Of a stretch of 30,672 bases of DNA, positions 5,529-28,979 are shown piece by piece. Within the stretch, counting starts at the first letter, position 1, and each line of letters starts with the position of its first letter. The notes below the pieces were generated by a model. The model worked only from the letters and a program-made list of their open reading frames with translations. It was not told the origin of the DNA and searched no databases. The position numbers and the translations under genes were made by a program. The DNA lies in IMG/VR virus record IMGVR_UViG_3300032288_001794, positions 1-30,672 of that record. One strand, written 5' to 3'. This stretch comes from a virus.

Positions 5529-5643
5529 TACGCCGTTATATTGCGTTTACTAAACTTATTCACAGGTTCAGCGTTAGCGCGGCCATTCTGTTCTGTGTCA
5601 TTCACGGCAGGTTTCCCTAATCCCTAAATTGAAAGGACATTTC

Positions 5644-6795
5644 ATGTCTGAATTTATCAAGGGTCAGGCTGAAGTTCGCAACAACCTAGTTGCTCAGATG
5701 CGCGAAGTCATTGATCTCGCAGAGTCAGAGAAGCGCGGGCTAACTTCAGAAGACCTACAAAAGATTGACCGTATCGAAGCTGACATTGCACAGCGCGATG
5801 CTGCTATTGCTACTGCTCAGAAGGTTGCACAGCGTTCGGCTGAGGCCGCTGAGTCTGCTGGTTCGTTTGCACCAGAAGTTGCGCCTGCTTCTTCTGAGGC
5901 TGATGTTCTTCGCGCGATTGCTCGTGGTGAGGTTCGTTCACACGAGTTCATGCGCGAAACTCGTGCGCCGCTAGTTCCTTCTAGCAACACCGTTCCAACC
6001 TCGTTCTATGACCAGGTTTTCCAGATTGCAACTCTTGTTGGCCCAATGCTTCAGACTTCTGAGGTGTTCAACACTGCATCAGGTGAGAACCTAGTTATCC
6101 CAACCGTTACTGCAATCAGCACTTCTGGTTCAGTTGCAGCTGCTGGAACTATCTCGGAGTCAAACCCAACCTTCTCATCAATCACTCTTGGCGCAGTCAA
6201 GTATGGTGCGCTGGTGAACTTGGCTAACGAATTGGTCACCGATGCCGGATTTAACATCACCGGATATGTGGCACAACAGCTCGGCCAGAGCCTCGGTGTT
6301 CAGGCTAACACTGCACTAACTGACAAGTTGGTTGCTGCTGCTGGTTCAGTTGTCACTGGTGGCACTGGTGTTTCTGGTGCGTTCACCTACGAGAACCTGA
6401 TTGACCTCGTTTACGGCATCGCAGATGGCGCACGAGTTCTTCCAGGCCTCGGCTTCATGATGGCTAAGAGCGGTATCGCTGCTGCTCGTAAGCTAAAGGA
6501 TGGCGCAGGAAACTACATCTGGCTAGACAACGCTGTTAACGGTCAGCCTGCACAGCTCCTTGGCTATCCAGTGTTTGAGAACCCTGCAATTCCGGCCGTT
6601 GGCACTGGAAACAAGTCGGTTCTTATGGGACATTTGCCGTCATTTAAGGCGAGGGTCGCCGGTGGCGTGCAGGTGGCCTCGTCTACCGATTTCAATTTCA
6701 ACACCGATGTGACCAGCTACAGGGGCCTCATTCGCGTTGATGGTGGACTCACAATTCCTAGCCACATCGGCTTCTTCAAGGGTGGCGCAAGCTAA
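5644..6795 (+). CDS. Major capsid protein (HK97 fold)
   Basis: Main shell protein of the icosahedral head. The 383-residue product starts at ATG 5644, seven bases after the strong ribosome site GAAAGGA (5631-5637). Residues 1-75 form a charged coiled coil (VRNNLVAQMREVIDLAESEKRG...) like the HK97 delta domain that acts as internal scaffold. The shell domain follows from about residue 110, with LVPSSNTVPTSFYDQVF, ENLVIPTVT and a C-terminal RGLIRVDGGLTI strand typical of HK97-fold capsids. The upstream protease probably cuts near residues 100-115. The gene is bracketed by terminators (5487-5528 and 6819-6852), giving a single-gene unit suited to high expression. Confidence 0.93.
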   Translation: MSEFIKGQAEVRNNLVAQMREVIDLAESEKRGLTSEDLQKIDRIEADIAQRDAAIATAQKVAQRSAEAAESAGSFAPEVAPASSEADVLRAIARGEVRSHEFMRETRAPLVPSSNTVPTSFYDQVFQIATLVGPMLQTSEVFNTASGENLVIPTVTAISTSGSVAAAGTISESNPTFSSITLGAVKYGALVNLANELVTDAGFNITGYVAQQLGQSLGVQANTALTDKLVAAAGSVVTGGTGVSGAFTYENLIDLVYGIADGARVLPGLGFMMAKSGIAAARKLKDGAGNYIWLDNAVNGQPAQLLGYPVFENPAIPAVGTGNKSVLMGHLPSFKARVAGGVQVASSTDFNFNTDVTSYRGLIRVDGGLTIPSHIGFFKGGAS

Positions 6796-26899: not shown

Positions 26900-27135
26900 T
26901 GGGTTTGTTAGATGGTTTAGAACCACACAAGAAGGCTAGGCCGTGTCGGGTGAGGTCGTTGTTGGCTGAGCTTGAGAAGAAGGATGCCGACATTCTGGCT
27001 TCCGCGTTGCAGTCACCTGATTTGTGGCCTGCAAAGACTCTAAGTAACGCGTTGAAGCAGCGCGGCGTGTTGTTGTCTGATTCGGCTATTACTCATCACC
27101 GTTCAAAAGCGTGTTCATGTGGGAAGATTGACTGA
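26899..27135 (+). CDS. Small HTH-like DNA-binding protein
   Basis: 78 residues from ATG 26899 (TAATG). The pattern CRVRSLLAELEKKDADILAS, then LWPAKTLSNALKQRGVLLSD and SAITHHRSKACSCGK, i.e. helices with a final H.R...C.C end, is common in actinophages and looks like a winged-helix or terminase-small-like DNA-binding module (ALKQRG as turn, SAITHHR as recognition helix). It is coupled to the phosphoesterase gene that follows (TGATG). DNA binding is an inference from the pattern. Confidence 0.65.
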   Translation: MGLLDGLEPHKKARPCRVRSLLAELEKKDADILASALQSPDLWPAKTLSNALKQRGVLLSDSAITHHRSKACSCGKID

Positions 27136-28304
27136 TGCTAGAAGACCTGACACCAGCACCAAAAATTGACGCTCCGAACAGTTGGCGGCCAGCCGTTGAG
27201 TTTGACGGCACTAACGGTGAAGCGACTACTCGTGGCTTTTTGCCTGATGAGCAACCGAACTTTGACGAGTTCTTGGTTGACGCTGGTTTCGACCCTGCAC
27301 TGATTGAGATTGTGGGCGAACCACGCACTAGCCGTTGGCAGGTTGCCAGACCGTTTCCGTTAGATCCGCAGTGGTTGACGGCTTACCGTTTCAGGTTCAA
27401 GAAACGCACCGGCACGAACCCTGATTTGCCGTTGTTGTTTGCTGAGGCTAAGAAGACCCGACCTCGCACACCAAAGGCCACAGCGAATGAAAAGGTGTTT
27501 GTTGTTTGTCTGGCAGATTTTCAGGTTGGCAAGGTTGATTACCGTGGGGGCAGTAAAGAGCTGATTCAGCGCGTGTTGGCTTCGTATGACCGTATTGAAG
27601 AACAGTTGAAGCGTGGCAAGTATGGGCGCATCTATGCTTTGGATTTGGGTGACATCATTGAGGGCATTGAGAACGCTGCGAACATGAATCAGCTCGTCAC
27701 GAACGACCTCTCGGTTATGCAGTCTGTGGATTTGGCTGCTTCGCTGGTTTGGGATTTTTTGAAGATGGCCACGAAGTATGCGCCGGTGACTTATGCCAGC
27801 ATCGGGTCGAACCATTGCCAGTGGCGTGTCAACCGTCAACAGATTGGCAAACCTGGGCGCGATGACTGGGGCATTGTTATCCTGCAACAGCTGCGCAGAC
27901 TCGCAACAGAGGTCGGGTTGCCTGTGGACTTCCTTGTGCCACATGAGCAAGAAGAATCACTAATCTTTGATGCGTTCGGTGACGGTTTCCACCTTGTCGG
28001 CATTGCTCACGGTCACCAGTTCAGCAGACCTGAGAACGCTGTGACTTGGTGGCGGCAGAACACCTTTGGCAATCAGACGATCAGCGCGGCATCCATCCTG
28101 CTCACAGCTCACTTCCACCATTTGCGCGTTGTTGAGGCTGGTGCTAGTCATAATGGCGGTTCACGGTTCTGGGTGCAGGCCACGACCAGCGACAACGGAT
28201 CGTCATGGTTCAAGCGTGTTTCGGGTGAGGACTCTGTGCCTGGCATCACCTGTTTGGAACTGACTAAGGATTTGCACTATCAGGGCGCGGTGCTTAAACT
28301 CTAA
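27135..28304 (+). CDS. Calcineurin-like metallophosphoesterase
   Basis: A two-part 389-residue protein. Residues 1-115 are a variable N-terminal region (RWQVARPFPLDPQWLTAYRF) also known in front of phage phosphoesterases. Residues 120-340 have the calcineurin motifs: ADFQ (127-130), DLGD (170-173), GSNH (224-227), AHGH (291-294) and TAHFHH (324-329). In motif I the usual D-x-H is D-x-Q (Asp128, Gln130), which may change metal binding or activity. Substrate may be DNA (Mre11/SbcD-like) or a nucleotide; I cannot choose. It is coupled to the HTH-like gene and is followed, six bases on, by the tmRNA-like RNA. Confidence 0.82.
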   Translation: MLEDLTPAPKIDAPNSWRPAVEFDGTNGEATTRGFLPDEQPNFDEFLVDAGFDPALIEIVGEPRTSRWQVARPFPLDPQWLTAYRFRFKKRTGTNPDLPLLFAEAKKTRPRTPKATANEKVFVVCLADFQVGKVDYRGGSKELIQRVLASYDRIEEQLKRGKYGRIYALDLGDIIEGIENAANMNQLVTNDLSVMQSVDLAASLVWDFLKMATKYAPVTYASIGSNHCQWRVNRQQIGKPGRDDWGIVILQQLRRLATEVGLPVDFLVPHEQEESLIFDAFGDGFHLVGIAHGHQFSRPENAVTWWRQNTFGNQTISAASILLTAHFHHLRVVEAGASHNGGSRFWVQATTSDNGSSWFKRVSGEDSVPGITCLELTKDLHYQGAVLKL

Positions 28305-28309
28305 GCCGA

Positions 28310-28388
28310 GGGGTGCAACTGGTTTCGATTGCAGAAAAGACCTTGTTGGGGTATCTGCAAGAGTAGGGTTCGATTCCCTAGCACTCCA
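28310..28388 (+). ncRNA. tmRNA-like mini RNA without message domain
   Basis: A 79-nt tRNA-like fold. Acceptor stem GGGGTGC (28310-28316) pairs fully with GCACTCC (28381-28387), with G3-U70, the alanine identity pair of tRNA-Ala and tmRNA, and an A discriminator (28388). CTGGTTTCGA (28319-28328) matches the tmRNA D region, which lacks a D stem. TTGCAGA (28329-28335) pairs with TCTGCAA (28354-28360) as in tmRNA helix P2. T arm: TAGGG (28364-28368), loop TTCGATT, CCCTA (28376-28380), directly joined to the acceptor. Only 18 nt lie inside P2, so there is no tag ORF or pseudoknot region. CCA is not encoded. Probably processed by RNase P and CCA-adding enzyme and charged with alanine; effect on ribosome rescue is a hypothesis. 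Confidence 0.75.
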
Positions 28389-28457
28389 CTCATAACTGAA
28401 TATCGTTCGACAATAAACGCCGAGAAATTACTCTCAACCAGGAAAGGTAGGCGCTAA

Positions 28458-28979
28458 ATGAAGAAACAACTAATCGCACTCACAACTTTGGGTGTCATTC
28501 TGGCCGGTTGCTCACCATCGGCAACGGCTGCGCAAATACCTGCGCCACAGGCCATCGTAAAAACAAACCCTGATTTCATGACAATCGTGAAGCAGGATGC
28601 CGCCGAGTTCCGCATGGCTAAGGTCGTGAAGGCGTTGAAGAAGCGCATTGGAAAAACTTGGTATGTGTTCAGTGGTTCGACACCTTCGGGTTGGGATTGC
28701 TCAGGTCTAACCAGGTGGGCTTATCAGCAGATCGGGATAGACATTCCGCACTCAGCTAACAAACAAGCCGCGAGTGGTGTGAAGGTGTCTGCACCGGCTA
28801 TTGGTGATTTGGTGCTGTTCGGTTACAAAGGCACTAACACCTTCTTTCATGCCAGCATCTACATTGGCAACGGCAAGGTGATTCATGCAGGGTTCAAGAA
28901 GGGTCAGACCACTTCTGTTCTTGACTTGCAGTCGGCCAGCGTAAAGAATACAAAGATGAGATTTGTTAGGGTCGGCTGA
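28458..28979 (+). CDS. NlpC/P60 lipoprotein peptidase
   Basis: A secreted lipoprotein predicted to cut peptide stems of peptidoglycan (D-Glu-diamino acid bond in NlpC/P60 enzymes). The 173-residue precursor has MKKQ, a hydrophobic stretch and lipobox LAGC (15-18, Cys18 lipidated), then an NlpC/P60 domain: the motif GWDCSGLTRWAY with Cys81, HASIYIGNGKVIH with His131 and a third polar position near His143. It is a second wall enzyme, away from the lysis cassette (17625-18654), and being lipid-anchored it is more likely to act from outside the membrane on the host or on incoming phage. AGGAAAGG upstream serves as ribosome site, with the tmRNA-like RNA further up. Confidence 0.88.
   Translation: MKKQLIALTTLGVILAGCSPSATAAQIPAPQAIVKTNPDFMTIVKQDAAEFRMAKVVKALKKRIGKTWYVFSGSTPSGWDCSGLTRWAYQQIGIDIPHSANKQAASGVKVSAPAIGDLVLFGYKGTNTFFHASIYIGNGKVIHAGFKKGQTTSVLDLQSASVKNTKMRFVRVG

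Follow-up and report, generated by a model that had tools for sequence, protein, structure and literature searches.

A message-less tRNA-like domain of tmRNA in a phage genome belongs to a conserved phage RNA family and may act as a decoy in ribosome rescue

The locus analyzed here, within a 30,672-nt stretch of viral DNA (the window), raises the question of whether a phage can encode the tRNA-like domain (TLD) of tmRNA on its own and, if so, what such an RNA might be for. In tmRNA, alanyl-tRNA synthetase (AlaRS) reads the G3-U70 pair, SmpB and EF-Tu bind the TLD, and the message is required to finish trans-translation. The original prediction was of a TLD without any message, and every element named in it is present in the sequence (Table 1). 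Its parts follow one another in the order GGGGTGC-AACT-GGTTTCGA-TTGCAGA-[18 nt]-TCTGCAA-GAG-TAGGG-TTCGATT-CCCTA-GCACTCC-A, with CTGGTTTCGA found by inspection at 28319-28328. The strands of P2 are separated by 18 nt alone, which are able to form a 4-bp P3 cap. The mRNA-like domain of a full tmRNA, with its resume codon, tag, and stop, is absent from these 79 nt, which leave no space for one, and the anticodon arm and D stem of a tRNA are likewise missing, with neither ARAGORN nor a tRNA model accepting the segment. We regard it as almost certainly a TLD-only RNA gene.

Table 1. Features of the TLD and its surroundings in the window.
Feature	Position	Strand	Remarks
Phosphodiesterase/exonuclease gene, PHROG 284	27135..28304	+	Stop 5 nt before TLD; phiPsal1 orthologue is "repair endonuclease"
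TLD-only tmRNA-type gene	28310..28388	+	79 nt; 3' end is discriminator A73; CCA not encoded
Acceptor 5' strand GGGGTGC	28310..28316	+	G3 = 28312; 7/7 paired with 28381-28387; pairs 4-7 covary in homologues
tmRNA-type D segment GGTTTCGA	28321..28328	+	
P2 helix TTGCAGA/TCTGCAA	28329-28335 with 28354-28360	+	Closed by A-rich bulge and P3 cap
P3 cap hairpin, loop TGTTG	28340..28352 (28340-28343 with 28349-28352)	+	4 bp
T arm TAGGG-TTCGATT-CCCTA	28364..28380	+	After 3-nt linker GAG; stacked straight on acceptor; 5/5 pairs
Acceptor 3' strand GCACTCC and discriminator A73 (28388)	28381..28388	+	U70 = 28385
Leader of downstream gene, separate conserved element	28389..28457	+	Similar leader in relatives without TLD
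NlpC/P60-type lipoprotein gene (nlpC)	28458..28979	+	PHROG tail/lysin matches; neighbor, not judged part of the system

Standard tools make no call at this place. No Rfam 15 model matched 28310-28388 at its gathering score, the threshold of the tmRNA model RF00023 included; the best weak match, to tRNA-Sec, reached 16 bits where the cut-off is 47, and ARAGORN reported nothing. The folding energy is modest (z = -1.97), with a minimum free energy structure that breaks the T arm, so that proof of the fold comes from comparison and not from energy. The possibility that the flanking DNA codes for a longer, fragmented tmRNA was tried and failed, and the Rfam scan gave no other tmRNA match anywhere in the window. 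Across the family described below, many TLDs are scored by Rfam as short tmRNA matches (RF00023 in local mode was over its cut-off in 28 of 32 TLD-bearing records, without a match to the subgroup of G009, G019, and the window itself), and nearly all are overlooked by ARAGORN, which together may be why they escaped notice. The sole tmRNA call made by ARAGORN (L082:5905-6228, minus strand, 324 nt) appears to be false and merely spans an 80-nt TLD. When the window TLD was compared with phages by blastn, only partial matches were obtained, covering at most 35% of the query and lying in tRNA genes where annotated; a phiPsa locus found in this way contained no TLD on closer inspection.

Homologues were collected from viral contigs with a first pattern that fixed GGTTTCGA and GGTTCGANTCC alone, 25-55 nt apart, and left the acceptor free. 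It yielded at least 120 viral loci, and of the 119 matches evaluated, the acceptor is fully paired (7/7) in 90, representing 71 distinct sequences, and pairs at 6/7 or fewer positions in the remainder. Among the matches listed, G1-C72, G2-C71, G3-U70, A73, and a 5/5 T stem occur in all 71 distinct sequences with a 7/7 acceptor; of these features, the pattern had fixed the inner T-stem pairs alone, whereas the constancy of the D segment was imposed, as GGTTTCGA belonged to the pattern. The claim that the RNA is phage borne and carries alanylation and SmpB-type features is upheld, with G3-U70 and A73 found in the window as well as in 71/71 distinct viral sequences.

The remaining helices vary and keep their pairing. 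Across the 71 sequences, acceptor pairs 4-7 are paired in 316/316 cells against an arm-shuffle maximum of 217, and P2 is paired in 507/553 cells, where shuffled arms gave 279 on average and 315 at most. For 36 aligned TLD sequences, paired cells amount to 95.9% (72.3% in shuffles), doubly changed cells number 171 (46.9 in shuffles), and the covariation score is 0.595 (0.126 in shuffles). Acceptor pairs 4-7, P2, and the T stem covary strongly across phage TLDs; a lack of covariation in the acceptor, P2, and T stems of homologues had been named as grounds for abandoning the prediction, and the opposite was found. A P3 cap inside P2 is also common to many TLDs, with consensus AAAGCCGCAYGCGGA (alignment A4, columns 26-44).

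These changes bear directly on the origin of the element. Many phages integrate at the 3' end of tmRNA, and several blastn matches were of that sort, so it could be supposed that the TLD is an attachment-site remnant, or a decayed host tmRNA, left behind by integration or imprecise excision. Such an origin is refuted by the double compensatory changes and is very improbable indeed: an attachment core holds the 3' part alone, whereas the phage TLDs have also retained the 5' acceptor, D segment, and P2, which evolve in concert. No integrase is found among the gene families listed for TLD neighbors. Two bacterial genomes that harbor a resident TLD also carry their own full tmRNA, and in both the acceptor sequences of the two RNAs differ. 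The one phage with a published TLD of this kind, DS6A, integrates at tRNA-Lys and not at tmRNA (PMC10865867).

A covariance model, R2, was built from 36 phage TLDs of one linker-length class with the window left out, and it recovers the window TLD at 67 bits (E about 3e-16 in 293 kb). In a preceding model, R1, misplacement of the variable linker by MAFFT had cost the acceptor, and R2 took its place. Variation in the D segment also came to light in the collection: the TLD of phage BRock, recovered by the covariance model, carries GGTTTTGA at this position, and the E. coli-type D segment GGATTCGA is present in some collected TLDs. The viral scans combined give at least 138 distinct TLDs of 61-92 nt from 205 fetched stretches, which include a few contigs fetched twice. 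G3-U70 is present in all 138 distinct TLDs, of which only the 71 are unbiased in this respect because UCCA at the 3' end was demanded by the patterns used later. Diversity is considerable, with 93 clusters at 90% identity among 120 TLD sequences. In the shortest forms (61-63 nt), a short loop (GCAA, for instance) closes P2, which makes a tag impossible. Cyanobacterial matches (L123, L127, L131, and L132) were excluded for having no matching 5' acceptor, and Stenotrophomonas phage IME-SM1 and Xanthomonas phage Rb1 were set aside, as the finder reports them not to be TLD-only. When 84,980 bacterial and archaeal genomes were scanned in a comparable way, 18 matches came up, 9 of them with a 7/7 acceptor and some neighboring phage head or terminase genes. 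On these counts, TLD copies are phage biased, a bias and no measured ratio, as the viral and cellular collections are neither equally large nor alike in composition.

The carriers include phages in culture whose hosts are named. TLD-only genes lie within or beside tRNA clusters in Streptomyces phages LuckySocke, Shaeky, BRock, and Riptide, and an 80-nt TLD query aligns over 99-100% of its length with GiJojo, Alone3, and pSt2308. Among cultured phages, the window phage is most closely related to Pontimonas phage phiPsal1, which infects a member of the Microbacteriaceae, has a similar gene order, and encodes a terminase that is 55% identical. Its TLD (5569-5647) begins directly behind a stop codon, with the major capsid gene following after 116 nt, and lies away from nlpC. 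In the GenBank entries of LuckySocke, BRock, Shaeky, Riptide, and phiPsal1 (L169, L170, L171, L172, and L251), these TLDs are annotated as neither tRNA nor tmRNA. SmpB was found in none of 31 phage records and in 10 of 10 bacterial controls, and no second, full tmRNA over the family cut-off was found in 30 phage records; virus records may be incomplete in both counts.

Closer to the window, a relative of the downstream NlpC/P60 lipoprotein is encoded at 28 viral loci, 12 of which have a TLD at the same place. Within the window's own small group of relatives, paired cells amount to 98.1% against 79.8% in shuffles, doubly changed cells to 38 against 14.3, and the covariation score to 0.694 against 0.315. 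Double changes occur in 15 of 23 pairs, all 7 P2 pairs are doubly changed somewhere among these relatives, and the P3 cap keeps 4/4 pairs in all 7 relatives, with double changes in 2 pairs. By a hand count in alignment A5, 12 of the 15 differences between the window and L141 sit in six doubly changed pairs. Homologues at the window's own site differ mainly through compensatory pair changes. Comparison of the window with L143 and L145 gives identities of 94-97% over 150 nt upstream, 100% in the downstream leader, and 77-81% in the TLD, which stands out as a divergence hot spot (77-81%) amid 91-100% flanks when L141 is compared as well; the pattern looks as if alleles had been swapped or had coevolved quickly. 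The same slot can hold other RNAs. At L150:2877-2937, on the same contig as L252, it contains a G3-U70 acceptor, a 9-bp stem, and a T arm without the GGTTTCGA D segment, possibly a D-less derivative of the TLD, a form confined to a single contig among those collected. The slot before nlpC is filled in L162 by a true tRNA-Arg(TCT) gene (2821-2894). Outside the slot, downstream of the nlpC relative in L165 (3808-3883), ARAGORN reports a tRNA with the anticodon TTA (stop).

The position of the TLD, 69 nt upstream of nlpC in the window as in 11 further relatives that bear one, could speak for a cis-acting element controlling the downstream gene, and regulation of the lipoprotein gene had indeed been suggested. 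This is highly unlikely, and the suggestion is unsupported, since the same TLD stands beside unrelated genes in other phages and, in co-linear phiPsal1, before the capsid gene, a location which argues that the RNA acts in trans. Same-strand downstream neighbors share no common family (major head proteins in 7/46, the rest mixed), so linkage to one gene is not constant; upstream neighbors are of mixed families too. More distant nlpC relatives without a TLD still keep the leader, and in L162 a real tRNA-Arg gene takes the place of the TLD. The leader has arms, CGCC/GGCG or CGACC/GGTCG, that flank a stretch just before the start codon and are kept in L154, L161, L162, L163, L165, and L166, relatives without a TLD included; it has no Rfam match.

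No sigma-70-like promoter was found on the plus strand between 28000 and 28600, and with the TLD following so closely on the preceding stop, processing from a longer transcript is likely. TLDs often lie inside phage tRNA clusters, and some adjoin RNA ligase genes. Encoded CCA agrees within a locus: by a hand tally, mostly CCA-bearing tRNAs accompany 10 of 14 TLDs with CCA and none of 29 TLDs without it (Fisher p 5e-7, overstated because some loci are the same phage). The tRNA-Arg gene in the slot of L162, this CCA agreement, the mixed neighbors, and the lack of an own promoter favor a tRNA-like, processed, trans-acting RNA. A trans-acting RNA in such surroundings might also be thought to act independently of SmpB as a sponge, soaking up a host defense or toxin directed at tRNA, charged or not, and a TLD has no anticodon to cleave. 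We consider this improbable, as a plain tRNA would suffice for the purpose, whereas the retained tmRNA-type D segment, P2, and linker point to a tmRNA partner.

The reading we prefer, and on balance the most likely one, is that the window TLD is an alanylated decoy of SmpB and trans-translation that hampers host ribosome rescue. It would probably be cotranscribed with the preceding gene, cut out by tRNA-processing enzymes, and given CCA; host AlaRS would then charge it with alanine by virtue of G3-U70 and A73, and host SmpB and EF-Tu would bind the charged form. As a TLD without resume codon, tag, and stop could not complete trans-translation, it would compete with host tmRNA for SmpB and/or sit unproductively on stalled ribosomes, such that tagging and rescue are damped during infection. 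For the window TLD, we infer that it is expressed, processed, charged, and bound by SmpB, and that the phage benefits from it.

A TLD-like molecule, chargeable or not, strongly inhibits tmRNA, according to a 2014 account that offers SmpB titration as perhaps the cause (PMC4131195, citing Mao et al. 2009), and the inhibition of tmRNA in E. coli by a TLD-type RNA is repeated in a 2025 paper (PMC11915505, citing the same work). Competition with host tmRNA would be the simplest outcome and agrees with this cited inhibition; the decoy role first proposed thus stands as the best reading, with its mechanism a deduction. Since the inhibition is reportedly independent of charging in the 2014 account, simple SmpB titration leaves the invariant G3-U70 unexplained, and the unbroken conservation of this pair suggests that the charged form matters.

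Active rescue in miniature has also to be considered, in which the charged TLD and SmpB would enter stalled ribosomes and take the nascent chain onto alanine, and the peptidyl-TLD would drop off and be hydrolyzed, leaving ribosomes freed but proteins untagged. The invariant alanylation signal would fit, and tag-less mitochondrial tmRNAs, which are retained together with SmpB (PMC11915505), may work likewise, but it is unlikely here, as there is no known way of ending translation without a message and the accounts cited above report inhibition by a TLD-only RNA in E. coli. For the decoy, a more specific proposal can be ventured tentatively, with the odds somewhat against it: message-less TLDs could be a widespread class of phage anti-rescue RNAs acting as charged decoys, and not an oddity of DS6A. 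G3-U70 is kept without exception while acceptor pairs 4-7 turn over, which argues for selection on alanylation itself. Together with SmpB and EF-Tu, the Ala-TLD would move into stalled ribosomes and either dead-end or free them, a step that the conserved P3 cap would serve.

If the decoy reading is true, interference with ribosome rescue would be a common and so far unannotated phage strategy, and structural studies of SmpB could make use of a natural RNA of 61-92 nt as a minimal TLD. A message-less tmRNA had been thought unknown; this does not hold, as mycobacteriophage DS6A was listed as "TLD only" by Hudson, Lau and Williams in 2014 (PMC4131195) and noted again in PMC11915505, and at least 138 distinct phage-type sequences were collected here. 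TLD-only phage RNA is already known in print from this single phage, no paper describing a family of such RNAs was found in the literature, and the surprise is how large and how constrained the family is. A curiosity of a single mycobacteriophage thereby becomes an extensive family, conserved in structure, whose members come from phages of many samples, cultured phages with named hosts included.

Among known systems, the DS6A RNA is like the window TLD in being phage encoded and in having no tag reading frame (PMC4131195), a likeness drawn by description alone from what was described as a single case; the window phage is a different phage, with a host family that is probably different (Microbacteriaceae). 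The bacterial one-piece tmRNA (ssrA, RF00023) shares with the window G3-U70, A73, the GG(U/A)UUCGA D segment, P2, a GAC-type linker, and the T arm, and it differs in having a tag ORF, resume codon, pseudoknots, and an mRNA-like domain, with a length of about 350 nt against 61-92 nt for phage TLDs. The permuted two-piece tmRNA, as in phage Melnitz (PMC9004378), is phage borne like the window TLD and consists of two RNA pieces plus a message, its TLD joined by pairing, whereas in the window a loop closes P2 and both TLD halves belong to a single RNA. Tag-less organelle tmRNAs, of jakobid mitochondria and of the plastids of Mallomonadaceae (about 65 bp), the plastid forms having been added in 2025 (PMC11915505), are likewise cut down to the tRNA-like part, but they are organellar and are presumed to serve the organelle and not a virus.
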